DNA from: Epinephelus fuscoguttatus | Lineage: Eukaryota; Chordata; Actinopteri; Perciformes; Serranidae | NCBI RefSeq assembly: GCF_011397635.1 | Contig: NC_064771.1 | Location: 12,339,379-12,403,378 of the forward strand | DNA length: 64,000 bases | Direction of reading: 5' to 3' | Part shown: in pieces, positions 2,889 to 29,790 of the stretch | Layout of the letters: every line of letters starts with the position of its first letter | How positions within the stretch are numbered: position 1 is the stretch's first letter | Made by a program: the position numbers and the translations under genes | Notes under the pieces: generated by a model | Told to the model about the DNA's origin: nothing | What the model saw: the letters and a program-made list of their open reading frames with translations, nothing else | The model's database searches: none

Positions 2889-3622
2889 TTATCGCTTTTT
2901 ATTGAGGGTATGAACAAAATTGCTGCATGTGGTGCAAGGATAGAAAACCCAAATTGCTCCTCCTGGGGGACACCAAGGCGTTCCCAGGCCAGATGAGATA
3001 TGTAATCCCTTCCAGAGTGTTCTGGGTCTGCCCCGGGGCCTCCTACCAGTGGGACGTGCCCGGAAGATGATCAGATGCCCAAACCACCTCAACTGACCCC
3101 TTTTGATGCAAAGGAGCGGCAGCTCTCCTCTGAAGTCCCTCCAGATGTCTGAGCTCCTTACCCTATCTCTAAGGCTGAGCCCAGCCACCCCACGGAGGAA
3201 ACTCATTTCAGTCGCTTGTAGCGATCTCATTCTTTCGGTCACTACCCAGTTCACGAGTTCATGACCATAGGTGAGGGTTGGGACGTAGATGGACCAGTAA
3301 ATCGCTCTTCAGCACAACAGTCCAGCGCTGCACCCGCATCACAGCAGAAGCCACACCAAACTGCCGATCCATCTCGCCCTAACCCTCGTGAACAAGACCC
3401 AGAGATACTTGAACTCTTTCACTCCCTCCCAACCCAGAGGGGGCTATTCACCGATTTCCGGCAGAGAACCATGGCCTCAGATTTGGACCACTTCACACTC
3501 GGCTGCAAACTGTCCCAGTGCATGATGGAAATCACTATGTTATGAAGCCAACAGAATCACATCATCTGCAAAGCACAGAGACGCAAGTTTGAGGTTCCCA
3601 AACCCCGCTAGGACTGTTTCAT
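2889..3622 (-). pseudogene. 5'-truncated non-LTR retrotransposon (LINE) reverse transcriptase remnant
   Basis: Read on the minus strand, this begins with the polymerase core motif FADDVILLAS (low end near 3540) and continues through a frameshifted middle. It ends in the C-terminal block of fish LINE reverse transcriptases: VVTERMRSLQATEMSFLR, GLSLRDRVRSSDI, QLRWFGHL, RPTGRRPRGRPRT. Everything upstream of the FADD motif is missing, which is the normal outcome of incomplete reverse transcription. The middle section is recognisable only by switching frame, and the tail is degraded, so it cannot encode a working enzyme. The clade was not resolved. It lies in the spacer between the first gene and VPS35L. 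The open plus-strand frame at 3261-3545 is its antisense shadow. Confidence 0.85.
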
Positions 3623-4144
3623 AAGCAAGACATGTAATATATTTGCATTGTACTTCAATCAACAGGTTAGAAATCAACTCATACTTAAGACCGGTATTTA
3701 AATATAAAGCAGAATGATTGTTTATTTCTACAAATGCATGATGAAGACACATTAAAAATACATAATGTTGCAATACAGAGAGCAGTTGTGGTATAAGTTC
3801 AGTCAAAGATAACTAACTTTGTTTGATATGCAGGGGAACACTGCAGTAACCGGTGCAAATGACAGCAAAAATACAGTTCTGACAGATGTATCACTGCTTA
3901 AAATTATTTTTTAGACTGTGGCACGTTTTTCAAAATTTGAAGCCATTTTAGTTCAACAGAAAAATTAGGCCTAATCTTTGCAGCAGATCTGATGCATATT
4001 GGCTTGTTTGCAGTGTTCTTTTTGTAGAGAAGTCAGCAGCTTGTGACTTAACAGAAGACAGGAAAACATGCAGAGGAATGTCATTTCACTTCCTTTGTAA
4101 ACTTTGAATAATTTGTTGATTCATTTAACATTTTTGTCGCATAG

Positions 4145-4497: not shown

Positions 4498-6293
4498 TCA
4501 GGTGCGGGACTGCAGTTGCAGCCTCTGGACTGTATCCAACAGGTGGTTCATGTCGGCCTGCTGAGCCTGGTGTTTGATGTACTCCAGAGTCCGAACCTGG
4601 AGCAGAGAGAAGAAACAGGCTGTGTTCACACAAAGCACGTTTGCTGAAATTAACAAGTAGAGCATCAATTTAAATAAGTCTGGGTGCAGCTGCTTGAGAA
4701 AAGTGTAAAATGTCTCCCTCACCGAAACTCGAGTCTCACAGTATCCGTGTTTGTGGCTGAGGTTCCACAGGTTGACAGCCAGCTGGCTTAGCTTGTTGTT
4801 CCTCAGGTCACCGTGAGCGAGCAGGACGCCAAACAGGGAAAAGGCCAGAGCGCCTTGACGCCGTGTGCTCTGCTGCAAGAGGGCGAGAAGAAAGCAGTGT
4901 TTTAGTTACTAGCTAGAAATTAGCTTCTGAGGAAAACATTTTAAAAGATGCACAAGAGGAGAAGAAGCGCTGTGGTCTTTTTGGTGGCAGTGAGCCGTTT
5001 TTGCCTCACCTCATCCCGACTGAGTGCCTTCAGGTGGTCCAGGATCTGTCCAATCAGAGTTTCACACAGCTTGTTGATCTCTGATAGAAACTTGGGGTCT
5101 CCTCCATAAAGTGTCTCGTTGGAGTCCACTGAGACCACGAAAGAGGAGAAAGATAACATAAAAATTCCTGTTTTTTTGAGATCTAAATATAAGTGATCAT
5201 TGATATCAATATCATTGATATTTTTACCTTTAGGGATGGAGTAGAGGTAGGTTTCTTGGCCCATGGCAGCCAGCAGGGGCAAAGCGCTGATGTAGACCCG
5301 CACCTTGGCGTCGCTGTTTTCCTCCCAGGTGTAATCTTGTACCATGTTGAGTAGACCGCGGACAAGGTAGAGCACGCCATGCTCTGGATGGTCCTGCAAG
5401 AATATTCACACATACATATTGGGAGTTTAGGGAGACCAGCATGATGGTTTGGCACTTCTCTAAGTTTTAATTGAGCTGTCTGAAGAGAAAAATGAGGAAA
5501 AGCTAAAATGTTTCAGTTTTGGGCGATATATCTCTTCTTTCTGTTTCTGGAGAGGATTGTCTTACTGGGACAACTAGTAGTGTAGCCAGGAAGTTGTTGA
5601 TAAAGTCCAGCAGGAAGCTCTCAGAAGAGCGAAGTTTTCCTTCCACGCTGATGGAGCGAGGAACCTCTGGAAGAAGACTGACTGCTGCCTTTAGGAAAGC
5701 ATCCGCTGGAGGTGCAGAAAGGATGGAGGGGGAAAAGAGGGAGGAAGGATGGAAAATAAGTAAATGATTGGGACAAAAGGAGAGAAGGGAAAAGTCAGAG
5801 GCAGATAAATAATGTTAGGAATTGCTGATACAAAGCGAAATGAATCATTACCTCAGATTTTACACACAAAATAATGACCTGCATTTTTACTCCTTGTTTA
5901 AACTGAAAGGAAACAGCTGCTCACCCTGGGAGAGACACTGGTTTGCTAACGCAACCTGACCAGACAGCAGATAGAGGCTGAGACGACTAAAGATGCTGCT
6001 GAGAGACGGGATGGTGATAAAACTGTAGGCAGCACACGCCTGGAGGAGAAAGAGGGATAAGTTTAAATAAGCATCTGACATTTGAAGCCGACGCTGGGCT
6101 CACTGTTTCTCAGGAAATGCTGAGATCTCATTCTGTAAGAAGGAACGGTGGCCTGCAGTGATCAGATGCTGCTTGTGTTGACTCACCCTGACAAAGGCCG
6201 CTGTTTTACGTGAGTGATTTCCTCTCATCACCCTGCTGGTCTCCATCGCCAGCTGGTTCACCGTCTGGAAATGACAAGGTGGACAGTGAGGAT

Positions 6294-6327
<34 letters not shown>

Positions 6328-9300
6328 GATATCACGCACAAATTGAACATACAAACAAAGATTTGTACTGACATGAATGAGCTGCACCATCACTGACTCC
6401 AGGTTACAGAAGGTGGCTCTGGCCTCCACACAGAAGCTCAACTGCTGCTCGAAGTCCCGACCAAAAGAAACCTGTACACAACAATGGACAAACAGAATAT
6501 ATGTGTAACAAGACAAGAGTACTTTTGCTAAACAATACTTACTTAAAGATGGGAAAATAAAGATTAAAGGATGCATTGGTCTAAAATCACAACTTTTTTT
6601 AAAACTGTAAAGTTCAAAAGAAATTTGAATTTGTATAATTTACTCTGCTGTACCATACCAAAGAGCTCCATTGTTGTCAAAAATATATTAAAAACACATC
6701 AACAATGTGCACTGAGTGATGTTTTTTGTATGTATGTCATAAAAAATGCAATAAAAAGCCATGGCATAGTATAGTATGTCGTCAAAATCATGACAAAATG
6801 TCATAGTATAGTATGTCATCGAAAATCATAAAAAAAAAAAAATCAAGGTATAGTACGTCGTCAAAATCATGAAAAAAAGTCATAGCACAGTATGTTGTCC
6901 AAAATCATGAAAAAACGTCATAGTACAGTATGTCGTCGAAAATCATGAAAAAACGTCATAGTATAGCATGTTGTCCAAAATCATGAAAAAACGTCATAGT
7001 ATAGCACGTCGTCCAAAATCATGAAAAAACGTCATAGTATAGTATGTCGTCCAAAATCATGAAAAAACGTCATAGTATAGTATGTCGTGAAAAGTCATGA
7101 AAAAAGTCATAGTATAGTATGTTGTCAAAAATCATGAAAAAACGTCATAGTACAGTATGTCGTCCAAAATCATGAAAAAACGTCATAGTACAGCATGTCG
7201 TCCAAAATCATGAAAAAACGTCATAGTATAGCACGTCGTCCAAAATCATGAAAAAACGTCATAGTATAGCACGTCGTCCAAAATCATGAAAAAAAGTTAT
7301 AGTACAGTATGTCGTCCAAAATCATGAAAAAACGTCACAGTACTGTATGCCGTCCAAAATCATGAAAAAACATCATAGTACAGTATGTCGTCCAAAATCA
7401 TGAAAAAACGTCACAGTATAGTATGTCATCCAAAATCATGAACAAACGTCATAGTATTGTATGTCGTCATAAATCACGACAAAATGTGATGGTACAGTAT
7501 GTCGTCCAAAATCATGAAAAAACGTCATAGTATAGTATGTCGTGAAAAGTCATGAAAAAAGTCATAGTATAGTATGTTGTCAAAAATCATGAAAAAAAGT
7601 CATAGTATAGTATGTCGTCCAAAATCATGAAAAAACGTCATAGTATAGTATGTCGTGAAAAGTCATGAAAAAAGTCATAGTATAGTATGTTGTCAAAAAT
7701 CATGAAAAAACGTCATAGTACAGTATGTCGTCCAAAATCATGAAAAAACGTCATAGTATAGCATGTTGTCCAAAATCATGAAAAAACGTCATAGTATAGC
7801 ATGTCGTCCAAAATCATGAAAAAACGTCACAGTATAGTATGTCGTCAAAAATCATGAAAAAAGTCATAGTACAGTATGTCGTCCAAAATCATGAAAAAAC
7901 GTCATAGTATAGCATGTTGTCCAAAATCATGAAAAAACGTCATAGTATAGCACGTCGTCCAAAATCATGAAAAAACGTCATAGTATAGTATGTCGTCCAA
8001 AATCATGAAAAAACGTCACAGTACTGTATGCCGTCCAAAATCATGAAAAAACATCATAGTACAGTATGTCGTCCAAAATCATGAAAAAACGTCACAGTAT
8101 AGTATGTCGTCAAAAATCATGAAAAAACGTCATAGTATAGTATGTCGTCAAAAGTCATGAAAAAAGTCATAGTATAGTATGTCGTCCAAAATCATGAAAA
8201 AACGTCATAGTATAGTATGTCGTGAAAAGTCATGAAAAAAGTCATAGTATAGTATGTCGTCAAAAATCATGAAAAAAAGTCATAGTATAGTATGTCGTCC
8301 AAAATCATGAAAAAACGTCATAGTATAGCACGTCGTCCAAAATCATGAAAAAAAGTTATAGTACAGTATGTCGTCAAAAATCATGAAAAAAGTCATAGTA
8401 CAGTATGTCGTCCAAAATCATGAAAAAACGTCATAGTACAGTATGTCGTCCAAAATCATGAAAAAACGTCATAGTATAGCATGTTGTCCAAAATCATGAA
8501 AAAACGTCATAGTATAGCACGTCGTCCAAAATCATGAAAAAACGTCATAGTATAGTATGTCGTCCAAAATCATGAAAAAACGTCACAGTACTGTATGCCG
8601 TCCAAAATCATGAAAAAACATCATAGTACAGTATGTCGTCCAAAATCATGAAAAACGCCACAGTATAGTATGTCGCCAAAATCATGAAAAACGCCATAGT
8701 ATAGTATGTCGTCCAAAAGTCATGTAAAAACGTCATAGTACAGTATGTTGTCCAAAATCATGCAAAAACGTCATAGTGTAGAATGTTGTCAGAAATGACG
8801 AAAAAACGTCATAGTATAGTATGTCGTCAGAAATCATGAAAAAACGTCATAATATAGTATGTCGTCTAAAATCATGCAAAAACATCACAGTGTAGTATGT
8901 TGTCAGAAATCATGAAAAAACGTCATAGTATAGGTCGTCCAAAATCATGAAAAAACGTCATAGTATAGTATGTCGTCCAAAATCATGAAAAAACGTCATA
9001 GTATAGCACGTCGTCCAAAATCATGAAAAGAAGTTACAGTACAGTATGTCGTCAAAAATCATGAAAAAAAGTCATAGTACAGTATGTCGTCCAAAATCAT
9101 GAAAAAAACTCATAGTACAGTATGTCGTCCAAAATCATGAAAAAACTTCATAGTATAGTATCTCGCCAAAAATCATGAAAAAACGTCATAGTATAGCACG
9201 TCGTCCAAAATCATGAAAAAAAGTTATAGTACAGTATGTCGTCCAAAATCATGAAAAAACGTCACAGTATAGTATGTCGTCAAAAATCATGAAAAAAGTC

Positions 9301-12300
9301 ATAGTACAGTATGTCGTCCAAAATCATGAAAAAACGTCATAGTATAGCATGTTGTCCAAAATCATGAAAAACGCGTCATAGTATAGCACGTCGTCAAAAT
9401 CATGAAAAACGTCATAGTATAGTATGTCGCCCAAAATCATGAAAAACGTCACAGTACTGTATGTCGCCCAAAATCATGAAAAAACATCATAGTACAGTAT
9501 GTCGTCCAAAATCATGAAAACGCTACAGTATAGTATGTCGTCAAAATCATGAAAAACGTCATAGTATAGTATGTTATCAAAAATCATAAAAAATATCATG
9601 GTAAAGTATGCCGTCCAAAACCATTTAAAACGTCATAGTATAGTATGTCGTTGAAAATCATGAAAAAATGTCATAGTATAGTATGTCAGCAGAAATCATG
9701 AAAAACGTCATAGTATAGTATGTCGTCCAAAATCATGAAAAAATGTCATAGTATAGCATGTTGTCCAAAATCATGAAAAAACGTCATAGTATAGCACGTC
9801 GTCCAAAATCATGAAAAAACGTCATAGTATAGTATGTCGTCCAAAATCATGAAAAAACGTCATAGTATGGCACGTCGTCCAAAATCATGAAAAGAAGTTA
9901 CAGTACAGTATGTCGTCAAAAATCATGAAAAAAAGTCATAGTACAGTATGTCGTCCAAAATCATGAAAAAAACTCATAGTACAGTATGTCGTCCAAAATC
10001 ATGAAAAAACTTCATAGTATAGTATCTCGCCAAAAATCATGAAAAAACGTCATAGTATAGCACGTCGTCCAAAATCATGAAAAAAAGTTATAGTACAGTA
10101 TGTCGTCCAAAATCATGAAAAAACGTCACAGTACTGTATGCCGTCAAAACCATGCAAAAACGTCATAGTATAGCATGGCGTCCAAAACCATGCAAAAACG
10201 TCATAGTATAGTATGTCGTCCAAAACCATGCAAAAACGTCATAGTATAGCATGTCATCAGAAATCATGAAAAAATGTTATAGTATGGTATGTTGTCAGAA
10301 ATCATGTAAAAACGTCATAGTATAGTATGTTGTCAGAAATCATGAAAAAACGTCATAGTATGTCGTCCACAATCATGCAAAAACGTCATAGTATAGCACG
10401 TAGTCAGAAATCATGAAAAAACGTCATAGTACAGTATGTTGTCCAAAATCATGCAAAAACGTCATAGTGTAGAATGTTGTCAGAAATGACGAAAAAACGT
10501 CATAGTATAGTATGTCGTCAGAAATCATGAAAAAACATCATAGTATAGCATGTCGTCCAAAATCATGAAAAAAACCTCATATAGCATGTCGTCCAAAATC
10601 ATGAAAAAACGTCATAGTATAGTATGTCGTCCAAAATCATGAAAAAACGTCATAGTATAGCATGTCGTCCAAAATCATGAAAAAACGTCATAGTATAGTA
10701 TGTCGTCCAAAATCATGAAAAACGCACAGTATAGTATGTCGTCAAAATCATGAAAAACGTCATAGTATAGTATGTCAAAATCATGAAAAAGTCATAGTAT
10801 TGTTTGTCGTCCAAAATCATGATAAAACGTCATAGTATAGTATGTTGTGAAAAGTCATTAAAAAAGTCATAGTATAGTATGTCGTCAAAAATCATGAAAA
10901 AAAGTCATAGTATAGTATGTCGTCCAAAATCATGAAAAAACGTCATAGTATAGCACGTCGTCCAAAATCATGAAAAAAAGTTATAGTACAGTATGTCGTC
11001 AAAAATCATGAAAAAAGTCATAGTACAGTATGTCGTCCAAAATCATGAAAAAACGTCATAGTACAGTATGTCGTCCAAAATCATGAAAAAACGTCATAGT
11101 ATAGCATGTTGTCCAAAATCATGAAAAAACGTCATAGTATAGCACGTCGTCCAAAATCATGAAAAAACGTCATAGTATAGTATGTCGTCAAAATCATGAA
11201 AAACGCATAGTACTGTATGTCGCCCAAAATCATGAAAAAACATCATAGTACAGTATGTCGTCCAAATTCATGAAAAACCCTCATAGTGTAGTATATTGTC
11301 CAAAATCATGAAAAACGTCATAGTATAGTATAGTATAGTGTCAAAATTCAGGAAAAAAGTCATAGTATAGTAGTATGTCGTCCAAATTAATGAAAAACGT
11401 CATAGTATAGTATGTCATCCAAAATCATGAAAAAAGTCATAGTATAGTATGTCGTCAAAAATCATGAAAAAAAGTCATAGTATAGTATGTCGTCCAAAAT
11501 CATGAAAAAATGTCATAGTATAGCATGTTGTCCAAAATCATGAAAAAACGTCATAGTATAGCACGTCGTCCAAAATCATGAAAAAAGTCATAGTACAGTA
11601 TGTCGTCCAAAATCATGAAAAAACGTCATAGTATAGCATGTTGTCCAAAATCATGAAAAAACGTCATAGTATAGTATGTCGTCCAAAATCATGAAAAAAA
11701 GTCATAGTATAGTATGTCGTCCAAAATCATGAAAAAACGTCATAGTATAGTATGTTGTCCAAAATCACGAACAAACGTTATAGTATTGTATGTCGTCCAA
11801 AATCATGAAAAAAAGTCATAGTATAGTATGTCGTCCAAAATCATGAAAAAACGTCATAGTATAGTATGTCGTCAAAAGTCATGAAAAAAGTCATAGTATA
11901 GTATGTCGTCCAAAATCATGAAAAAACGTCATAGTATAGTATGTCGTGAAAAGTCATGAAAAAAGTCATAGTATAGTATGTCGTCAAAAATCATGAAAAA
12001 AAGTCATAGTATAGTATGTCGTCCAAAATCATGAAAAAATGTCATAGTATAGCATGTTGTCCAAAATCATGAAAAAACGTCATAGTATAGCACGTCGTCC
12101 AAAATCATGAAAAAACGTCATAGTATAGTATGTCGTCCAAAATCATGAAAAAACGTCATAGTATGGCACGTCGTCCAAAATCATGAAAAGAAGTTACAGT
12201 ACAGTATGTCGTCAAAAATCATGAAAAAAAGTCATAGTACAGTATGTCGTCCAAAATCATGAAAAAAACTCATAGTACAGTATGTCGTCCAAAATCATGA

Positions 12301-15300
12301 AAAAACTTCATAGTATAGTATCTCGCCAAAAATCATGAAAAAACGTCATAGTATAGCACGTCGTCCAAAATCATGAAAAAAAGTTATAGTACAGTATGTC
12401 GTCCAAAATCATGAAAAAACGTCACAGTACTGTATGCCGTCCAAAATCATGAAAAAACATCATAGTACAGTATGTCGTCCAAAATCATGAAAAAACGTCA
12501 CAGTACAGTATGTCGTCAAAAATCATGAAAAAACGTCATAGTATAGTATGTCGTCAAAAGTCATGAAAAAAGTCATAGTATAGTATGTCGTCCAAAATCA
12601 TGAAAAAACGTCATAGTATAGTATGTCGTGAAAAGTCATGAAAAAAGTCATAGTATAGCATGTTGTCCAAAATCATGAAAAAACGTCATAGTATAGCACG
12701 TCGTCCAAAATCATGAAAAAACGTCATAGTATAGCATGTCGTCCAAAATCATGAAAAAACGTCACAGTATAGTATGTCGTCAAAAATCATGAAAAAAGTC
12801 ATAGTACAGTATGTCGTCCAAAATCATGAAAAAACGTCATAGTATAGCATGTTGTCCAAAATCATGAAAAAACGTCATAGTATAGCACGTCGTCCAAAAT
12901 CATGAAAAAACGTCATAGTATAGTATGTCGTCCAAAATCATGAAAAAACGTCACAGTACTGTATGCCGTCCAAAATCATGAAAAAACATCATAGTACAGT
13001 ATGTCGTCCAAAATCATGAAAAAACGTCACAGTATAGTATGTCGTCAAAAATCATGAAAAAACGTCATAGTATAGTATGTCGTCAAAAGTCATGAAAAAA
13101 GTCATAGTATAGTATGTCGTCCAAAATCATGAAAAAACGTCATAGTATAGTATGTCGTGAAAAGTCATGAAAAAGTCATAGTATAGTATGTCGTCAAAAA
13201 TCATGAAAAAGTCATAGTATAGTATGTCGCCCAAAATCATGAAAAACGCCATAGTATAGCACGTCGTCCAAAATCATGAAAAAAAGTTATAGTACAGTAT
13301 GTCGTCAAAAATCATGAAAAAAGTCATAGTACAGTATGTCGTCCAAAATCATGAAAAAACGTCATAGTACAGTATGTCGTCCAAAATCATGAAAAAACGT
13401 CATAGTATAGCATGTTGTCCAAAATCATGAAAAAACGTCATAGTATAGCACGTCGTCCAAAATCATGAAAAAACGTCATAGTATAGTATGTCGTCCAAAA
13501 TCATGAAAAAACGTCACAGTACTGTATGCCGTCCAAAATCATGAAAAAACATCATAGTACAGTATGTCGTCCAAAATCATGAAAAAACGTCACAGTATAG
13601 TATGTCGTCAAAAATCATAAAAAACTTAATAGTATAGTATGTCGTCAAAATTCATGAAAAAAGTCATAGTATAGTATGTCGTCAAAAATCATGAAAAAAC
13701 GTCATAGTATAGTATGTCGTGAAAAGTCATGAAAAAAGTCATAGTATAGTATGTCGTCAAAAATCATGAAAAAAAGTCATAGTATAGTATGTCGTCCAAA
13801 ATCATGAAAAAATGTCATAGTATAGCATGTTGTCCAAAATCATGAAAAAACGTCATAGTATAGCACGTCGTCCAAAATCATGAAAAAACGTCATAGTATA
13901 GTATGTCGTCCAAAATCATGAAAAAACGTCATAGTATGGCACGTCGTCCAAAATCATGAAAAGAAGTTACAGTACAGTATGTCGTCAAAAATCATGAAAA
14001 AAAGTCATAGTACAGTATGTCGTCCAAAATCATGAAAAAAAGTTATAGTACAGTATGTCGTCCAAAATCATGAAAAAACGTCACAGTACTGTATGCCGTC
14101 CAAAATCATGAAAAAACATCATAGTACAGTATGTCGTCCAAAATCATGAAAAAACGTCACAGTATAGTATGTCGTCAAAAATCATGAAAAAACGTCATAG
14201 TATAGTATGTCGTCAAAAGTCATGAAAAAAGTCATAGTATAGTATGTCGTCCAAAATCATGAAAAAACGTCATAGTATAGTATGTCGTGAAAAGTCATGA
14301 AAAAACTCATAGTATAGCATGTTGTCCAAAATCATGAAAAAACGTCATAGTATAGCACGTCGTCCAAAATCATGAAAAAACGTCATAGTATAGTATGTCG
14401 TCCAAAATCATGAAAAAACATCATAGTATAGCATGTCGTCCAAAATCATGAAAAAACGTCATAGTATAGCACGTCGTCCAAAATCATGAAAAGAAGTTAC
14501 AGTACAGTATGTCGTCAAAAATCATGAAAAAAAGTCATAGTACAGTATGTCGTCCAAAATCATGAAAAAAAGTCATAGTACAGTATGTCGTCCAAAATCA
14601 TGAAAAAACTTCATAGTATAGTATCTCGCCAAAAATCATGAAAAAACGTCATAGTATAGCATGTCGTCCAAAATCATGAAAAAACGTCATAGTATAGCAC
14701 GTCGTCCAAAATCATGAAAAAACGTCATAGTATAGCATGTCGTCAAAAATCATGAAAAAAGTTATAGTACAGTGTGTCGTCCAAAATCATGAAAAAAAGT
14801 CATAGTACAGTATGTCTTACAAAATCATGAAAAAACTTCATAGTATAGTATCTCGCCAAAAATCATGAAAAAAGTCATAGTGTACTTTGTTGTCAAAAAT
14901 TATGAAAATCATAGTACAGTATTTCATCACAATTTTCATGAACAATGTTAAAGTACATTATCTGGTCAAACACCATGAAAAAAACATCACCGTATAGTAT
15001 GTCACAGAAAATGCCATAAAAAAAAAAATCATACAGTCATAGCATAGTATGGAAAAAAAATAAAAAATGGCCCCCCAAAAAAACCTAGCTCTTCAGTTTC
15101 TAAAAACTTTTTGTGTGGGGAGTTCCCCCCAGAACCTCCTAGACATTTAGGTCACAGAGGGCGTACATTGAAAATGGTCTCCCCAGTGTTACACTGATGA
15201 TTATGGCCCTGCCTCAAACACACTACTCCCTCCTGACTGAGTTATGTTTTCTAAAAACTACAGTGCCAAGCTTTTTTAGTAATCATTTCGTTTTAAAATA

Positions 15301-18300
15301 TTCACATCTTCAGTAAGAATAAATGGACTTGGTGCTGAAAGCCAGAGAGAAATTATGTCTCAGAAAGTAGTGAGAGATAGAGTCCTGAATGACCATTAGA
15401 AAATATAAAATAACACCAGTCTTATTTCTTAAATGCAGAAAAAAATTCTGAGGAGTCTCACCATGCGGATGAAGCCAATGATCAGCAGAGACAAAGATCT
15501 TTTCTCATCCTCGAGAGTGAGAGCGCTGCGGTAGAGAGAGCAGACAGGCTACTGAGTGAAGGCTGTTAACAGGCAGATCAGGAAACTAAGAAGAAAAGTA
15601 GGTGTCTAAACTCACTGACATTTACTGAAATTAAAAAAAAAAATAGAGATGAAAAACTGTAATCACATAATTACAAAGACCTATTTCCCCAAGTCCCTAT
15701 AAGAGAACAGCTGAAGTAATTGTAATTGTAGAAGTAATTACAGGTATATAACACACACACACACACACACGCACACACACACACAGCCTACTTGACAGAG
15801 TCATGCATGGTCTTGCAGATGTGCAACATGGCGTTAAGGATGACCGGGTCTCTGGTGGGCTCCACCTGGTGCCTGTAGATGGAGAATAATTAGTAGTCAA
15901 AATTTTTTCTCACACTTGCCAATTTTATTTTGTTACAAAGCAAATAAATCTAATTCAACAAACTCTGAGGCAGCTCTTACTTGATGAAGACCTCCATGAT
16001 GGATCTGCACACCTCCACCCTCACACTGTCCTTCTGGAACATGTCTAGGAACGGCAGGAAACGCTCCTGGGAAAAAAAACAATTAGGGAAACTTTGTGGA
16101 CTGTTTCAGGCCTCCAGAGTGCAAACTTGTATTATGTATGTTTTGAAGTGGTGGTTGCTCACCATGGAGAAGAGGACGGAGAAGTCGTGGAAGTAGGTGA
16201 GGATCTTCCTGATCACTGACTGCAGCTGGATGCAAAACACAACAGAGTCAGTACAGAGCCGACGAAAGGATGAGGAGGAACGGCTCTGTTTTAGGAGAAC
16301 AGGGTAGATTGTCCTGTTAGGTATGATGAGCTGCTAACCTGAGGATAAGCGTCCTCAAACGCCCGGTCAGGGGTCATGTGTTTGATGATGTCAGCCAGTA
16401 CGGTGTTGACCTCACGTTTCTAATAGAAAGAGAAGACAGGTTAAATAAAGTGATAGGAACTTTAAATTCCACATGATAAAAGGTGTCAGGCAGGTACTTT
16501 ACTGACTGTGAAGTGTCGGCAGGTGAACTCCACCCAGATCTCAGCACAGTTGATGTAATCCTAAAAACACACATAAACATTCACACATACAGTCAAAACC
16601 TGAATATTTTCATGGATTAAACCCCTGTGAGAAAGCAGCATCACTCTTCAGTACCTGAGGACTGCGGACTTTGGTGACGACCTTCCAGGCTTCATTCAGG
16701 ATCGTCAGTCGCTCAGATTCTGGAGGGTCGGCACAGGCCAGACTGCGACCCAGAGATCCAAACAGCAGATGCTGGAGAACAGACAATAGTCAAGCTTCCA
16801 CTGATATTTCAAGCACATTTAGACGATGTCTTAACCTATACTTTAACAGAAGAATAAAGTGTTCTTAACTAGAACCTTCAAGCTTATATTGCCTTACATA
16901 TTTACATTTATTGGATCACTGTACTACATCTGTTCTCTTCTGACCTTTGGGAAGCCGGCCTCGTCACAGTCTTTGATCATACCGATAAAGTCAGTGGCCC
17001 TGGCTGCGACAAATTCTGGCCTGAACGCCCTCATAACTGAATTCAGCAGCAATGCACTGTGGAAAACAGGAACATGTTGGATCTTTAGGGTAAAAAACTC
17101 AACCTTTTTTTGTCCCCCAACCCCAGAAACCATTGAAACACTTGAGTAAAAGCTGTGTAAAACTTTGATTATGTACACTGTGTGTCCACCTCATTAAAAC
17201 AGTGTCTTTAAAAGCACTCACTTGTTCCCCAGCTTCTTGCATCTCTCCATCATCTCCGTTAGTAAAGGCTGAAATGGAAGCACAAATAGTCTTATAAACA
17301 CTCATGCCTCTGACAGCTGACCATTTTTTACAGCATTCAATATGTTTTAGTTTGAAAATTCATGCTAAATAAGTTGAGGTAAAACATGCCTCTGGAGCTC
17401 TGTAGGCGATGCACTGCAGGATCCAGTTGATGGCGGGTGAGTAGAGCGTCAGGTACTCGGGCACCTCCACCCTCTGCATGACCAGCTGGTTCTGGACGCT
17501 CTCCCCACTAATCTGCCGGAAGGTGCCCAGCAGGTCGAAGAAGTTGCGGTTCAGGCTGTCTTTCAGGTGGGGGGCCACTTCCACGCCCACCTGGAAGAAG
17601 AGAGCACTGTTATCTCTGGGCCCAGACCCTTTTTTCTCCCTTTAACCAGTCATTATGATACTCTGTAACTGGATCACATTTAAAGGTGAGTCAAACAAAA
17701 TTATGGATTTATTCAAAAAAGGTTTTAATTCATCCTGGAGGAACATTCAGTGGTCTTAACAGCAAAAATGGAAAACAAACAACAAACAAACAAACAAGCC
17801 CATTTCTGCCAAAAAAATCATGTGAGTCATTATAATTAGACTTTCTTGAAATGAGTTTCTACTTTTAAAGTTTCTCATTTTCTTGAGATATTAAGTCATT
17901 GTTTTGAGACAGTTTCTCATTATTTTGAGATATCAAATCAATATTTTGAGATACTAACTCATTATTCTGAGATATTGAGTCATTATGTCAAGAAACTAAC
18001 CCATTGTTTTCATTACTTCGAGATACTAAATCATTATTTTGAGATACTAAACCTTATTTTGAGATACTACGTCAATATTTTGAGAAAGTTTCTCATTATT
18101 TTGAGATACAGAATGATTATTTTGAAATACTAACTCATTATTTTGAAATATTAAGTCATTATTTGGAGAAAATTTCTCATTTTAATGACTTAAAAGATCT
18201 TTATTTTTTCGATACACTGGTGGAAATGGGCTTCCATACATCACCACCCCACTAATAGGGCAAAAATAATGACAGGAACAGGCAGTGAAAATGAGTCGAC

Positions 18301-21300
18301 AGATAAGAACTGGCTCAGAAACAGGAGACAGGAAAGGAAAATGAAGTGAGCACATCTCACCCTGCAGAGGTAAGCTCTGGTATATGCTGCCACCAGAGGG
18401 TCTCCGATCCCTCTGATCATGGCTGTCAACCGAGGGAGTGTCTCCGGGATACCACTGTGAAGGTGGAGGAGCAGAAAGGAAGCTGTGCTATGTGTCTAAA
18501 AAAACCTTATAACTAGAAAGTTCTATTTGGTAGATCAGATGTAACAAATGTATCTCAAAGAACTTTTGAACACTGTCCTCTACACTTGCAATTATGAGAG
18601 ATTAAGTGGGGACATTTTGGTACAGAGACCTTCATCAAACAACCTGATGAAGGTCAAAAATGTTGCTCCCGATAAATCTCTCATAATCGCAAGTGTAGAA
18701 TACAGCGTGTGGGAGATCTTCATTCCACTATAGTTGGCCATGGTCTTCTCCAACACACCTATGAACCTCAGGTGTGTATAAGATTTGCTTTTTAACAAAT
18801 ATATCACAAAATCTTTCACATAACCCAAAAATGTAACTCAGAGAAACAAAGCAAAGACTGACTTTTAAAGCCCATAAGAGAATCAAACTAACCTCTTGTT
18901 CAGGAAGCGGTTGCACTTCAGAATGGCAGCCTCAACGTATCTGTTCATAGAGGTCAAGGAGTTGTCAAAACGGGCCTGACATTAGTTCTGATCATCTGAG
19001 AAGCATTATTGATTTAAGCGGTGAAGCCCTGCTGATGGCAGTAAAGGATACAGTCTGGGCAGAAGCTCTCTGATGGAGGCGATCTTGAAGAACCAGTTAA
19101 GGCACGTCTCCTTGGCCGTGTCATTCACATCGTCAACTGTGAACGAGTCTGAGTAGGAAGGAAGCCAAGTGGAAAAATCAGACACTACCCAGACAATATA
19201 TCCAGTGAAATACGTCTGGATATAAGAGAGTCTGATTAGTACCTGGTAGGGGTCGTGGGTCTGAACACATGGTCCAGATTCTGTCGTATACCAGCCGTCC
19301 TACAGAGAAATGAGATTAAAGTAAGAAAACCTGCAGTGTTTTTTAACTGAGCTGAGAGAAACAAAGATTCAATACGCACCAAAAGTGTCGAGGATATCAG
19401 TAATGAGAACAAACTTGCTGGGGTAGAACTGGATCACAGAGGTGTCGGACAGAAGCTTCGAGCACTGGAACATAGATCACAGATCAGTGTTTATGTCTTT
19501 ACGCAGGAGACATTATTTTTAGGATGAGTGTTTTCAGCTGCTGGATTACCTGGATGACAATCTTCAGGGCTTTGACCTTCTGGTCCGAGGCCCAGGCTTC
19601 CTTCAGGGACTGGTTCAGCTCCTCGATGCGGTTAGCGTAATCCTGCTGGGAGAGGTTGAGCAGCTCTCTCTGGGAACCCTGCACACACACAGACAAACAA
19701 GTCGGTCCAAAACACATCCTTGCTCTTACATGAATTCACTCTGCTTTGCTAGTATGACATTAATGCCAATGAAAATCTATTTAGTTGCTGAATTTTGCAG
19801 CTTATTTAAGCACCAATGGAGGCTGTGGACATTATGTGAATACACATCAACACAAATAAAAGAGCATTTGGTGAACAATTTAATTCTTATAGTACTGGGA
19901 GTTCAAATGATTTTAAAATAAATTATGTTTGAAAGCCACTCTATGAAAGCGTACCTCCTCCAGATCGTCGAGTTCCTCCAGGCGAGTTCGAACTTTCTCT
20001 GAAACAGCTGAGGATCCTGGACTTGGAGCTTTTCCTACAGCAACAACAGGAGTCATTTGTTAACTATCGACCACAGTAAAAAAAAAAAACAGACTCTGTA
20101 GTTTTTTTAAAGATTACTTTAAGGAATACTTCAGCCACAAAATGATGATTTGTACTCACTCATCAGTTACTCATCCTATGTAATGCTGAATTAGTGAGGA
20201 AAACTTTATTTTTCTGGCATGCTTCCACAATGAACGAAGAATCCAAAAATTGAGAAAATTCTTGATGAATTGGCGTAAAAGGAGTCCATGTTAAATAACA
20301 GCAAATCATCCATTTATACAACTGTTGCAGTAAAATCCCAGTCTCATTTATCCAGGCATATGCTCAGTATTTCTCAAACGCCAACATTTTTGCTCATACA
20401 TTACTATTTCAAACATTTGTGCATAAACAGTCTCACCCACAAACGAGTAGTGTGCCTGGGCAAACGCATGCACCTGAACTCTGCCCAAAGGAATGCATAA
20501 GCAGACTCATGCCGAAGTTTTTCAGACCTAGTCCACGCAGACATGAGTATTTTCGAAAACTTCGCTTTATAAATGCATTTTAGCCTTTTGACCATACGCA
20601 AACTGCATTTATTGGTACTCTATTTTCAGTGTCGATGTGTCAAAAGATAAAACAAGAGTTTTTGGCTTCTTGTTGATATTTCATGCTAACATGACTCTTT
20701 ACAAATAAACACATAAATAAACAGCAACTCTTCAAGTGTATTGAAAAACAGAGGTGTCAGAATGTGCTACAGAGGTCACTGCTCCAGGTGTCCTTCTGGT
20801 AATGGCTTTTTTTCAGGCTGCTGATTGGCCAATATCATCTTCTTCTTTGCATGGCTTTAGGGTTAGGGTTCTATAACCGTTTGTGGGTTTGGCGTATTCT
20901 TTACAGGACTTTAAAGTGTTTTTGTGTTTTCTTTGGAAAGAGACTTTTTAAAACATTGTGTCTGGATGGGATTTTTTTGGAGAATGGAGGATGGGAAAGC
21001 CCTGTTTATAAAAGGTACTGAGCAAACAGATGTTTTGATATAGTTTTGCTGTTATTCACCGTGGACCCCAGTGACTTTAATTCATCAGTTTTTGGATTCT
21101 TCGTTCACTGTGGAGGCATGCAAGGAAAACAAAGTTTCTTCACAAAATCAGCATTAACACAGGGTGAGAAAGTGATACAACAACAGTCATTTTGTGGGTT
21201 AAAGTATTCCTTTAAAGCAGTATTGATTGATTGTTTTTGCCAATTTGGACATGACAGGCTGTCACACAACATTAATATATTATCATCTTATAAAGTTGAT

Positions 21301-23994
21301 ATTGCTTACACATCACAGCTGCCTATTTACACACGTTTCTGGACACCCAATATATTCAAGACAAATATTTACTCTCCTTTCAGCTCTGGTTTGGCCTCCA
21401 CCAACTTCTGAGAACTCCTGTTAAATACTCAACTATGTTCAGCACCTGGTTGCTAACTGTGTCTGTCAGCTGTTTGTGGCTGAGCAGATAGTACACTGCG
21501 GATTTATCAGAGCGTATTTGAGTGAGGTATTAATTAAATTATTATGACACAGATCTTACCTCGATCAGAGCCCATGCAGAGATTCTGTGAAGACAAAGAA
21601 ATTGAAATTAGGCTTCTGTGTGACAGGGCATGGCTGTTTGCAGCAGTACCAGAACACATCGTAACAGATGGATGGTTGTAATGGAGGACGACTCACAATT
21701 GAGAGTTTTTCAGTGGTGGTAAACCGGGCCAGGATCTCTCCTCGTTTTGACGACCAGGGCTCAAAGTCTGGTCCCACTGCCTCTTCTTCTTTCTCCTTCC
21801 TCTTCCTCCCCAGGTCCTGGAAGCACAACATCTGTCTTTAAAATACAAGTTTGGGTATCTCTACTTCTTTATGTGTTCAGCAGGATTCCACTAGTGTTAG
21901 TTTCTGAAGGTTAGTACCAATACTTGTATAACAAGCCTCTCAATAGCTGATGTTTCCAATTTTCCTGTGTTATTTTAATGTTTTAAATCAGAGTAGTGAA
22001 GCTTCTAGAAAAGCAAGTGTCTCAGTATGGACAGGTGTGTCTGCGGTGTTACTGACCCCTGTGGAGGCGCTGTGTGACATGGCAGGAACCTCAGTGGCCG
22101 AGGCTGCCGCAAACATGGAGAGGGGGTCGGTCCCATCCAGCATGGAGCTGAGGGGGTCCGGGGGCGCCGAGGAGGAGGAGGAGGAAGACGAGGAGGTGCT
22201 GCCTTTACGAGCCCCACGGCGGGTCTTTGTGTCTGTCACCTGGGTGGAGAGGAGAGGGGAAGATCAGAGCTGTTAAAGAGACGTCAAATTAAATGCAAGA
22301 AATGACCAAATTATGCTTTTAAAGAGACAGTTCACCTCAAAATCAAAATTATTATTTTTTTCTTATCTGTGGTGCTGTTTTTTAGTCTGGATTGTTTTGG
22401 TGTGAGCTGCAGAGTGTTGAAGATATCAGCCAAAAAGATGTCTGCCGTCTCTTGAGTATAATGGAACTAGATGCACTGGGCTTGCGGTGCTTAAAGTAAA
22501 AAAAAAAAATTGAAAAAAAAATTGGTTACTCAAGATATTCCACAGACCTTGTTGTGAGCAGTTTTATGTAGCAACTATTTTCTACCTAGCTACCTACCAG
22601 ACTACACCCACCAACTGTATCACTGGGCAGAAGGAAGCATGCATCTACTCATGAATGAGAGGCTCATGCTTATGACAGCGCGAGATGTAAACATTAATGG
22701 TGTTCTCCTGGGCTGAGCTGAAACGTTAGCTAGCTCAGTGGTGCTAGGTGAGCTAGCCGAAGATACATGCTTCCTTCTGCGTGGTGATACTGTTGGCAGG
22801 TGTAGTTCAGTAGAAAGAAAATAGTTCCTACATGAAACTGCTCACAACAAGGTCTGTGGATTATCTTGAGTAACCAGGTCATGATTTCTGGAAAGAGACA
22901 TTGCTGTTGAGTTTTCAAATGTTGCGTTGTTGGCGCTTTAACCACCACAAGCTGAGTGCCATCTAGTTCCATTATATTGGAGAGAAGGCAGACATCTCTA
23001 CGGCCAATATCTCCAACACTGTGCAGCCCACACCAAAACAACCTAGACTGATAAATAGCATTATGGGTAAGAGAAAAAAATTGCAGTTTTGATATTGGGG
23101 TGAACTGTCCCTTTAACTACATCAACAGATGAGTAACATAATAGATTTTGTTTAACTATGCTGATGGAGCAACTAATGCAGATGCTGTGATGTTGTGACA
23201 GACATCAGAACTTTATGAATCGTGTGCAGAGCTGGTGGTGGTGTTAGTGTTGAGGCTGAGCAGTAGAAAGACAGCAGATGGTTGTCTACCAAGATGGGTT
23301 TGAGGGGATGGTAGTCTCCAAATTCAATCGGAGAGGCCTCAGGATGACATCTCTGCAGCTCTGCCTCATAGTTGCGCCCTCTGGATCGCCTTGGTACACA
23401 ACAGACAGACAGGAGACCAGAGTCAGCTGTTTCTACTGACATCCTGCCAGTCACCATGTGAGCTTACAGACATATTGTTTGTTTACTTGCAGCTGAGCTC
23501 TTACTACTGATGCGGACACTCTGTTTTTAATGCTAATATATGCACTGCTTCTATCTTGCAAGAAAAAAACCCCCACTGATTAAGTCTTATTGCGATCTAA
23601 GATTTTTTTTAAAAAGATGAGTAGGCAAAAGACACCCAATTTGAAAGTGCTACAGAACCTGTGTGAGTCTTTTGACACAACCCCATAGGCTTTTTTAGAC
23701 TACAACCAAACCCTAGCCAAAAGGGCATTTATTTAACCGAAGGCCTAAATCACAATACCACATATCAATGCTGCAGCAAACTGGTAATATTTTGTTGACA
23801 ACCTGCAAAAAAGTTGACATGTCACTCGGTACGCTACATTATAACTAAGCTCGCGACACACACGGTTTTACTGCATGTACGTTCTCACACTTCACACAAT
23901 ATCAATAAATGTACAATTTAACATATGTTTGTAATGATACGGTGTTTTTTTTTTTTAATAAGAAAAGAGCTTCTTACCACTGCACCGCAGCCAT
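4498..23994 (-). CDS. vps35l: VPS35L, Retriever complex scaffold subunit
   Basis: VPS35L (C16orf62) is the VPS35-like alpha-solenoid of Retriever (with VPS26C and VPS29), which works with the CCC/Commander complex to recycle cargo from endosomes. Thirty coding exons join in phase to 2907 bp (968 aa; human 963). Exons, 5' to 3': 23994-23978, 23389-23290, 22239-22057, 21816-21697, 21584-21560, 20034-19955, 19678-19550, 19464-19380, 19299-19243, 19148-19052, 18940-18893, 18454-18361, 17590-17390, 17268-17222, 17056-16945, 16771-16655, 16560-16507, 16419-16339, 16225-16163, 16066-15981, 15872-15792, 15525-15462, 6471-6373, 6264-6187, 6039-5925, 5705-5566, 5393-5228, 5128-5010, 4872-4723, 4596-4498. 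Family landmarks are [11 protein letters not shown] near the start, the Ser-rich [16 protein letters not shown] segment, [39 protein letters not shown], and a C-terminus ending QSRT. The start ATG at 23994 gives MAAVQW, with the Trp codon completed across intron 1. Intron 13 uses a GC donor; intron 22 is about 9 kb and filled by satellite DNA. Exon 5 is a 25-bp microexon. Confidence 0.95.
6297..6324. repeat. (GT)n microsatellite
   Basis: About 13 uninterrupted GT units lie in the short VPS35L intron between exons 23 and 24, some 30 bp from the exon 24 acceptor. In the transcript it reads as a CA repeat upstream of the branch region. Confidence 0.9.
6763..15051. repeat. 8.3-kb satellite array, 38-bp unit, in VPS35L intron 22
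   Basis: About 215-220 head-to-tail copies of a 38-bp unit. Its conserved blocks are GTCATAGTATAGTATGTCGT followed by CCAAAATCATGAAAAAAC, and some copies are 36-37 bp. The array fills nearly all of the intron between VPS35L exon 22 (15525-15462) and exon 23 (6471-6373). Central units are very similar. Units at both edges (before 6900 and after 14870) are degenerate, as expected if unequal exchange homogenises the middle. Recurrent variants (TATAGCACGTCG, TATAGCATGTTG, TACTGTATGCCG, AAAGAAGTTACAG) recur in the same order in several places, giving higher-order blocks. Stops occur in every frame and no coding capacity is visible. The exact copy number could be affected by assembly. Confidence 0.97.
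15052..15461. other. VPS35L intron 22, remainder beyond the satellite
   Basis: Unique-looking AT-rich intron sequence between the decayed edge of the satellite and exon 22. It contains a short A-rich and C-run stretch (15056-15120). No other feature is seen. Confidence 0.6.
15751..15786. repeat. (AC)n microsatellite
   Basis: A run of AC units with one interruption (GC), just past the donor of VPS35L exon 21 (exon end at 15792). Confidence 0.9.
17796..18233. mobile_element. Short element with imperfect terminal inverted repeats and an internal minisatellite
   Basis: The ends AAGCCCATTTCTGCC (left) and GGTGGAAATGGGCTT (right) are imperfect inverted copies. Between them, from about 17850 to 18180, lies a degenerate tandem repeat of roughly 20-24 bp built on TCATTATTTTGAGATACTAA and variants. 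This looks like a non-autonomous DNA element whose interior has expanded. It sits in VPS35L intron 12. No coding capacity is present. Confidence 0.6.
18571..18707. repeat. Nested inverted repeat (hairpin) in VPS35L intron 11
   Basis: The outer arms (about 18571-18603 and 18673-18707) are inverted copies centred on TACACTTGCAATTATGAGAG and its near-complement, with a few mismatches. Inside is a perfect 11-bp stem, GACCTTCATCA at 18627-18637 with TGATGAAGGTC at 18645-18655, and a 7-nt loop. It could be a small foldback transposon or a structured intronic RNA. No gene is encoded. Confidence 0.7.
20117..21217. mobile_element. MITE family A, copy 1 (long terminal inverted repeats)
   Basis: The left end CTTTAAGGAATACTT is matched in inverted orientation by AAGTATTCCTTTAAAG at the right end. 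The similarity continues inward for about 150 bp, including the TGGCATGCTTCCAC and GAACGAAGAATCC blocks. The interior (GCAAATCATCCATTTATAC, CTCAGTATTTCTC) recurs at 31900-32170 and 48764-48870. No transposase frame is present, so it is a non-autonomous DNA transposon in VPS35L intron 5. Confidence 0.8.
22319..23117. mobile_element. MITE family B, copy 1 (foldback element)
   Basis: The left end (TTAAAGAGACAGTTCACC) and right end (GGTGAACTGTCCCTTTAAC) are inverted repeats. The arms stay similar for about 300 bp each, so nearly the whole element can fold on itself. Shared arm blocks include TTGTTTTGGTGTGAGCTGCA, TAATGGAACTAGATG, GTTACTCAAGATA and GCAGAAGGAAGCATG. It lies in VPS35L intron 2. A second member is at 53636-54137. 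Confidence 0.85.
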
Positions 23995-24638
23995 TTTTCT
24001 ACAATCATATGACACCTCAGAACTTCCTGGTTATGCCAAATTTTGGGAAAACACTGTTTTTGGTCTTAAATGGGCGACTTATTATGTAGTTATTATTGTC
24101 GTCGTAAGGACTACTACTGTCAATAACTAACAGGGTGTTATTTCACAATTTGTCATAACAACAGCGCGAATTGAGAGACGTTTTAATTTATGTTACAACA
24201 AAATATAACTTCATTTCCCAGGGAACATTGCGCGCTCTCAAGCGAGCTAGACCAAAGAAGCGAAAAAGAGAAAGAGGTCCCACTTTGCTGTTATTTTCAG
24301 GGACTGAACCCTTGTAGAGGAACTTTCCGTTGTATAACGGATTACCTGGGGAGAATCAACCAAACTGATATAATCTTGTTGAAAGAGCAGTTTAACCCTT
24401 CACTGCTACAATAAAATAAAAAAAAAGAAAACGACTTTTCTCTAGTGTGAAGTTTACCCGGAAGACGTATCCGCTTGCTAGTGTTGAGTGAAACATCTGT
24501 TTAATAGACAATCTTTGTGAATACCGCCGCTCTGTGTTGCGGGTCTGCTGCAGTCAGTGGAGACGATGGCTAACACTTTCACCTGACCATGACCTGATCG
24601 TAGAGCCGCAGGCTTGTCCGCCCACTTCACCTGACCAG
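23995..24638. promoter_or_regulatory. Head-to-head promoter region of VPS35L and ZDHHC16 with a probable non-coding first exon
   Basis: VPS35L starts at 23994 on the minus strand. A GC-richer plus-strand segment ends in a strong donor, CAG|GTACAC, at 24638/24639 and is a good candidate for the untranslated first exon of ZDHHC16. Promoter-type words are an ETS core CCGGAAG at 24458-24464 and TTCATTTCCCAG at about 24209, which resembles the ZNF143/Staf element. The proposed leader contains two tiny upstream ORFs (24566-24586 and 24589-24597). A spacing of about 0.5 kb is typical of bidirectional vertebrate promoters. Transcription starts are inferred, not seen. Confidence 0.55.
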
Positions 24639-26080: not shown

Positions 26081-27856
26081 AACAGCCAATCATTTCAGCT
26101 CTACACAATATTCTAATAACCATAACCCCAGTCACCATATTAATATAAATTTAGTTAGCCTATCTTCACATTTTGTTGTATTTCTTCATTAATACTTACT
26201 TATTAATACCAAGTTTTAGAACTGAATAATCAGAGAAAGCAAATGCAACAGATGAGCAGATGTGGTCAGTGTCAAAGCGACTGTTGAAAGTATTAAAGCT
26301 TTGCTGGAAGTGTTAACGAATGTGTGATGAATAATTTAGTGACGAATATAATGATGAGGATTGCAAAAAAAAACTGTTTTCCAATACTTTCACCAAGAGT
26401 CAAAAATCAAAGACATTTTTATATTGTAAAAAATGTATGTATATATCCTACTTAAAAAAACAAGCATCTAAGTCTTAGTCTACTTGTGTGTTTGCATGAT
26501 TTAAGAATGTCACATGTGAACTTTATCCGCAGTTTTTTTTTTTTTTTTTTCATCAGAATGACAGTATTGAACCAGCAGCCTGTCTAAAATCCTCCTCCTC
26601 CTCCTCTTTGAATCAGACAGACTGAGACACAACAGAGGTAGAAGAAAGGGAGATCACTGCCAGTGTTTCTCACTGTAATAAGCTTTACTTTGTCCTCTAA
26701 GACCAGATTTAGGGCAGCAGGTTGCCATAGACAGCAGCGTCCGGCTGTGTGCCACTCTCTCCTGTTCCACCTGTCGCTCCCTGGTACATGCACATTTACT
26801 GTGCCTTTTTAAGGTCTTGTTTAGGCAGCCATCAGCCGGTCTGTGCAACAGGCATAGGTGCTGCTGTGTGTCTGTTCAGGTGGCGGTATGTTTGTCATAT
26901 GTTTGGACTGTGGTCATGGTCAGTCAAAACAAGCTTTTTGAGTGTGACAACTGGGAACTTGCTTTTGAATACTTTATAATATTTCACAGATCACATGATT
27001 AATTGCAAATATAATGAAAGAATTTGTCAATTAGTAAATAATAATCCATTACAGCTCTACTCTCACAATCAGAACAATATCAAATTTGATTAATTTACTT
27101 CCATTAACTCTTATTAATGCAACAGTATAAATTTCGAACATAACCATGATGCACATGTTGACATCTGTTAACACACAGACGCCCAGTCTCACACAGTTGT
27201 AACAGGCAATCATAATTTCGGGCTGTAAATATCTGATTATCGAATTTTCTTCATCAAGACATAATCTGTCGAGAGACAACAGAGGTACAGGTAAAAATTA
27301 ATGGTTTCCCTCATGCCCATCTATCAAATCATCAATTTGTCCTACTGTGCCATGAGTAGTAGCTGCTATTAGGTGATCAATAGAAAATGATCACCCATTA
27401 GTCATTTCAGTAATTTCAAGTAAGAAAGCCGAACATGGTCTTGTATTTGCCTCTTAAATGTGAGGAGTTCACTTTTTTTTTTGTCATAATGTGAATATCT
27501 GGGTTTTGGACTACAGAGCTGGAAAATTAAAACATACCATTTGAATATGTCACCTTGGGCTCTGGGAAATTGCAAAGAGCTATTAAAATATTTTCAGACA
27601 CTTTATTGACAAAGCGATTAACCATCTGTAAGAAAATGACGGGAAAATGAAACGATAATGAAAACAAACATTAGTTCCAGGCCCATCGAACTGTTTGATG
27701 GTGTTGATTGGTTCTGATTTTATTGACAAAACAATGAAATGATAGCTCACTCTGGGAAATAATCTGCAGGTTAGTAAAAAAGTGATTGTTAGTTATCAGG
27801 CTGGGTATCAGAACTCAGTACCTTTCAAATCAAATCAGATCATCTTTATTTATATA

Positions 27857-29484: not shown

Positions 29485-29790
29485 TAGCACATTTAACAAC
29501 AACCGCAGTTGACTTAAGTGCTGTACAAAATAAAAGAATGACACACAAATATATGGCACTATAAAATGTACATAAATATAAAACAGAATAAAACCGGTAA
29601 GAACAAATACATACATAAAATGTTTATGAAATACCAAAATATTAAAACCACTACAAACAACCAAAAGCAACTGAAAACATGTATGTTTTAAGATTTATCT
29701 TCAGAATGTCACTGGAGGGGGAGCATTTGATTGAGAGCAGAACGCTATCCCAAAGCTTTGGAGCAGCTACCGCAAAGGCATGGTGTCCCT
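29485..29790. repeat. Dispersed fish repeat flanking the Tc1 insertion
   Basis: The left flank (CATCTTTATTTATA, 27841-27856) joins the right flank (TAGCACATTTAAC, from 29485) to restore a continuous repeat, interrupted by the transposon. The distal part, around 29740-29790 (CCCAAAGCTTTGGAGCAGCTACCG...AAAGGC), is related to 32560-32610. The class of this repeat was not determined. Confidence 0.6.

Follow-up and report, generated by a model that had tools for sequence, protein, structure and literature searches.

The 8.1-kb tandem array of a 38-bp unit in intron 22 of VPS35L of Epinephelus fuscoguttatus is very probably a dispersed satellite or minisatellite of the Lca_38 kind, which would have grown in place by the copying of blocks, been tolerated for its near-absence of splice sites and been removed together with the intron. 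The window analysed is a stretch of 64,000 nucleotides (contig NC_064771.1 of assembly GCF_011397635.1) corresponding to C20:12,339,379-12,403,378 of the assembly searched, which comprises 1,046,998,120 bp in 26 contigs.

The 38-bp array lies in intron 22 of VPS35L

The host gene was identified by its translated exon pieces, which matched the VPS35L chain of entry 8p0v, over residues 30-86, 111-596 and 611-963 of 963, and five other entries with E = 0. Its reconstruction gave a complete coding region (Table 1) with GT donors in 28 of the 29 introns and a GC donor in the remaining one, the exon with the ATG being counted as exon 1. Intron 22 measures 8,990 bp compared with a median of 137 bp for all 29 introns, and both the end of exon 22 and the start of exon 23 are in phase 0. 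The 30-exon model therefore agrees with the first-pass annotation, in which the exons flanking the array were described as intact and in phase and the intron was numbered 22. From these intact flanking exons, VPS35L would be spliced across the array. The complex is called essential for human development in a human-disease paper (PMC10086474).

Table 1. Coordinates in the window of the VPS35L model and of the array in its intron 22
Feature	Position	Strand	Description
VPS35L coding region	4498..23994	-	30 exons, open frame of 968 residues and stop
VPS35L intron 22	6472..15461	-	8,990 bp; GTGAGA donor at the 15461 end, CAG acceptor at the 6472 end
VPS35L exon 22	15462..15525	-	21 residues; protein match and gene model
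VPS35L exon 23	6373..6471	-	33 residues; protein match and gene model
Core 38-bp tandem array	6765..14908	+	~216 units; Tandem Repeats Finder and unit alignment
Degenerate edge unit	6728..6764	+	68% to consensus (unit alignment)
Degenerate edge units	14909..15024	+	74-79% to consensus; mean of last four units 0.75

Tandem Repeats Finder reported 215.9 copies in the core of the array, with period 38 and 88% matches, and a wrap-around unit alignment placed 220 units over 6728-15024, the outermost of them strongly diverged. Both agree with the 215-220 copies in intron 22 announced earlier; the extent then proposed, 6763..15051, is confirmed as an array but is slightly generous at its right end, as the units reach only to about 15024. 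The array covers approximately 91% of the intron, leaving about 256 bp on the acceptor side and about 437 bp on the donor side. The consensus unit on the + strand, antisense to VPS35L, is CATAGTATAGTATGTCGTCCAAAATCATGAAAAAACGT, and the mean pairwise identity among units is 0.88. A 23-base core of the unit, searched with up to 3 mismatches, gave 192 matches in the window against a mean of 0 in 100 shuffles. The G+C content of the array is 32%. It was rejected as coding sequence, its longest stop-free stretches being only 54 codons (+) and 52 codons (-). No RNA families were found in the window at gathering thresholds, and no exact copies of the array patterns in viral contigs or prokaryote genomes (two patterns each).

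Block structure and growth of the array

Successions of as many as 11 units are repeated unchanged elsewhere in the array, 15 to 161 units apart; the longest such run in 200 shuffles of the unit order was 3, and 109 of the 215 core units belong to recurring runs of at least 4. Adjacent units have a slightly higher mean identity than random pairs (0.889 vs 0.881). Block copying nevertheless seems to dominate over unit-by-unit copying, because the share of identical pairs is no higher among neighbours than among units paired at random (1.4% vs 2.9%). The worn units at the edges of the array also fit growth of this kind. A short repeat stretch would have been seeded in intron 22 and would have lengthened there as blocks of several units were duplicated again and again, presumably through slippage-type repair or unequal exchange.

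Assemblies often give tandem arrays the wrong length, and the array could in principle have been misplaced, inflated or collapsed at the VPS35L locus. This assembly artefact is barely credible: the longest exact internal repeat is only 472 bp (lag 4,935 bp), so that no large false duplication is visible, the 215 core units, 160 of them exactly 38 bp long, comprise 92 distinct sequences, the array passes into worn units within the intron on both sides, and the contig is chromosome-sized (39.7 Mb).

As regards its class, a classical heterochromatic satellite extends over hundreds of kilobases per array in DNA devoid of genes, to which an 8.1-kb array inside a gene does not correspond. A minisatellite or VNTR is an interstitial array, kilobases long, with a unit of approximately 10-100 bp, and the 38-bp unit and 8.1-kb length, as seen in one assembly, agree in size with this class. 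Minisatellites with variable copy number have likewise been reported from introns of growth genes in fish, among them GH of gilthead seabream (PMC3045353); the gene is different from VPS35L, and the likeness is one of repeat type and intronic position.

Relatives of the array in Asian seabass and in the assembly

Lca_38 is a tandem repeat of Asian seabass (Lates calcarifer) for which a probe sequence has been published and which is pericentromeric by fluorescence in situ hybridization (FISH) (PMC4833346). It has in common with the VPS35L array the 38-bp unit and the CATAGTATAGTATG core. The array unit is identical to the FISH probe at 34 of 38 bases over the whole unit, with 4 differences, while the best of 2,000 shuffled units reached 24 of 38 (14 mismatches). 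As to location, Lca_38 is reported as pericentromeric from FISH (PMC4833346), and the VPS35L array is inside a gene, at approximately 12.35 Mb of its 39.7-Mb contig. In the article texts searched for other reports of the 38-bp unit or of Lca_38, PMC4833346 alone seemed relevant by title, and a search for 38-bp pericentromeric satellites in teleosts found nothing.

The first-pass annotation had proposed to search the unit across the assembly, and the family proved to be dispersed. With a 401-bp piece of the array as query, at least 269 scored matches were obtained, those listed falling in at least 34 places, VPS35L included, on at least 14 contigs (counted by hand). A strict 35-mer of the unit gave 1,867 exact matches (1,067 forward and 800 reverse), 32 of them in the window, and its reversed control gave 0 in the assembly; the strict matches listed, which extend only into contig C4, already represent at least 19 separated places. 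One array on contig C1, with 235.7 copies, is longer than that of VPS35L. When an Lca_38 trimer was used as query, the best copies among the matches listed were approximately 91% identical over the full length and mostly at other places, although some of the matches listed coincide with places found by the VPS35L array; the top cluster, C23:20.979-21.002 Mb (about 23 kb), is the longest cluster of the family among the matches listed. The period, the unit match and the presence of arrays on many chromosomes all fit, and by these sequence features the VPS35L array would be assigned to the Lca_38 satellite family as one of its loci. It is a new locus of an already known kind of sequence.

Arrays with a unit of about 26 bp and a CATACTATACTATG core were also seen adjoining 38-bp arrays at C6:36.914-36.917 Mb (L012 6914-10000) and C17:35.772-35.775 Mb (L028), and are possibly a shortened derivative of the 38-bp family.

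Arrays in and beside other genes

Flanking sequence was read at 18 of the other 33 places listed, which contain 19 arrays, over approximately 10 kb on each side (ten places), 2.5 kb (four) or 6 kb (four). Likely exons were picked by a filter that scores codons and was trained on VPS35L, the score limits not being the same in every run; on its own training gene, the filter recovered 23 of 30 exons together with 18 other segments in 30 kb. Six of the 19 arrays are intronic, five lie downstream of coding exons, one lies upstream and seven were not placed relative to genes. Four of the intronic assignments are firm, as parts of a single protein are encoded on either side of the array: CERT1, GTPBP10, alanine aminotransferase and PDIA4. 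The other two are less sure and concern an EF-hand gene, which we take to be TESC, whose exon to the right of the array is hardly covered by matches, and a tau-like gene, in which the exon encoding tau residues 370-437 has the array on its 5' side and earlier exons were not seen. The five downstream arrays lie approximately 2-5 kb past the last visible coding piece; three follow an NR1D2-like gene, an NCK2-like gene and a kinase gene recognized by its kinase domain match alone and presumably SGK, while the other two follow genes assumed to be KCNAB and ROPN1L, whose candidate pieces beside the arrays gave no Pfam match. The upstream array lies about 0.3 kb before a candidate coding piece, likewise without Pfam match, which is presumably SMYD2. 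The five other intronic arrays measured, the tau-like case being left out, are 5.1, 2.4, 5.5, 1.0 and 1.0 kb long, that of VPS35L being larger (8.1 kb).

Intronic position is consequently recurrent for the 38-bp family, because 6 of the 19 other arrays lie in introns. It had been remarked earlier that satellites of this size usually sit in heterochromatin; this finds support in the pericentromeric location of Lca_38 in Asian seabass (PMC4833346), but the implied notion of an oddity of one gene finds no support in that form, the family being dispersed and intronic in 6 of 19 further cases, four of them firm.

The same FISH result (PMC4833346) is what speaks for a putative seeding of local heterochromatin by the array, in the manner of a pericentromeric satellite, with a dampening of VPS35L as its outcome. 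Such an effect is highly unlikely, given the comparable 38-bp arrays in introns of other genes and a CpG observed/expected ratio of 1.59 in the array as compared with 0.40 outside it, CpG thus not being depleted as it is in old methylated repeats. In stepped stretches of 8,144 bp, the ratio to the right of the array peaks at 0.50; in the five other intronic arrays it ranges from 0.62 to 1.18.

The orientation that gives a U-rich transcript was found in 5 of 7 intronic arrays, VPS35L included (p = 0.45), and in 10 of 12 arrays that lie within genes or downstream of them (p = 0.039 in an unplanned test), the count becoming 10 of 13 when the upstream array is added. An orientation bias of arrays in genes is not established by these counts. 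One may picture a single satellite family with two modes of existence, as a pericentromeric repeat in one fish and as a repeat established many times within genes, or just downstream of them, in another, where it would prefer the orientation with a U-rich and nearly AG-free transcript; we hold this to be rather unlikely. If it were true, the missing AG and the U-tracts would be the property that lets a satellite spread through transcribed DNA. The repeated occurrence, in introns and beside genes of a fish genome, of a satellite family whose relative is pericentromeric opens the genome-wide question of which sequence properties allow satellites to survive inside genes.

Splice sites and tolerance of the array

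The sense strand of the array contains 31 AG dinucleotides against approximately 328 expected from base composition, and neither AATAAA nor ATTAAA (0 each). Splice sites were scored with matrices built from 28-29 sites of VPS35L alone. None of the array sites, whether acceptors or donors, reached the lower quartile of the VPS35L sites; at the same limit, 6.8 kb of other VPS35L introns gave 20 acceptors and 29 donors, 50 shuffles gave means of 19.8 acceptors and 21.1 donors, and the flipped array gave 0 acceptors and 1 donor. One array AG outscores the weakest real VPS35L acceptor, and 276 of the 281 GT in the array outscore the weakest real donor, which is itself an outlier. Since the array offers hardly any splice sites or polyadenylation signals that could be used, VPS35L would tolerate it: it would be transcribed with intron 22 and then spliced out.

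Selection against AG within the array was considered and rejected. Among distinct transversion variants, 5 of 32 create a sense AG, compared with 15 of 76 possible (about 6 expected), and among transition variants 1 of 28 does so, compared with 1 of 38 possible. The AG poverty of the array is therefore a property of the consensus, with no sign of selection at the VPS35L locus, because AG-creating variants are not depleted.

Candidate effects on VPS35L

A different role for the array would be to tune VPS35L transcription or splicing, in dependence on copy number, by binding of proteins to the U-rich transcript, to ACGTCA half-sites or to foldable units. This candidate activity is consistent with the 237 runs of at least five T on the sense strand of the array, against 29 in 15026-24000, with the 116 ACGTCA motifs on its + strand, and with the folding of six consensus units, at least as good as that of 399 of 400 tandem shuffles for the sense strand and of 400 of 400 for the other. 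The VNTR in intron 18 of ABCA7, reportedly with a minisatellite-sized unit, is an intronic tandem array like that of VPS35L. The fly protein Heph is a homologue of the polypyrimidine-tract-binding protein. There are two precedents: the ABCA7 VNTR is reported to affect splicing, whereas the VPS35L array has no known effect (PMC5954066), and the transcripts of fly satellite introns require Heph for their processing (PMC6508621). The latter concern the Drosophila Y genes kl-3 and kl-5, in whose gigantic introns the satellite DNA is transcribed and which illustrate that intronic repeat arrays can be a burden requiring helpers (PMC6508621); those introns span megabases of simple satellites, are Y-linked and belong to a germline programme, as opposed to the 8 kb of the VPS35L array.

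The relative from Asian seabass lacks part of this equipment. The ACGT core of the half-site is missing from the Lca_38 probe, which has ATGT, and the Lca_38 strand that matches the sense strand folds no better than its shuffles, 155 of 400 of which equal or surpass it, although its other strand does fold better than its shuffles (0 of 400). In absolute energy, 35 stretches of the array have a mean of -45.6, weaker than the -51.2 of 241 other stretches of the window. Taking both sides together, an action of the array on VPS35L by protein binding is considered unlikely, and tolerance of a nearly splice-site-free repeat is the preferred reading. The fold z of the array is approximately -8 against ordinary shuffles, and -3.7 (sense) and -4.6 (other strand) against tandemised shuffles. 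A strong RNA fold was rejected as a functional signal, given that the sense strand of Lca_38 shows none and that the absolute energy is unremarkable, and is kept as a mere property; full self-complementarity of the unit (18 of 38) was likewise discarded, being equalled by 235 of 400 shuffles. Since its length could be typed, the VPS35L array offers a simple marker locus, but nothing yet suggests a phenotype.

Other features of the window

Three further introns of VPS35L hold repeats or folds. Intron 12 contains a second tandem array (17869-18181) with 21-bp/42-bp units around TCATTATTTTGAGATATTAA, as given by Tandem Repeats Finder, and intron 11 a hairpin (18570-18708) with 41-nt arms, 83% complementary, and a 57-nt loop. 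Intron 2 carries an inverted-repeat element (22319-23116) with arms of up to 119 nt at 81%; related copies stand near 53.6-54.0 kb (53636-53979), and the element is likely a non-autonomous transposon. On the - strand, a frame at 53150-53605 has an MMS19 N-terminal Pfam match, and 2950-3700 resembles, as an impression from reading, a decayed reverse transcriptase of a non-LTR retrotransposon. A Tc1/mariner-like element occupies 27855-29486, with an open transposase frame at 28020-29036 (-) that has Tc3-type HTH and DDE_3 Pfam matches; its 272-bp inverted repeat (27855-28126 and 29215-29486), the first arm of which overlaps the end of the frame, is 99.3% identical, and the element is suggested to be a young copy.
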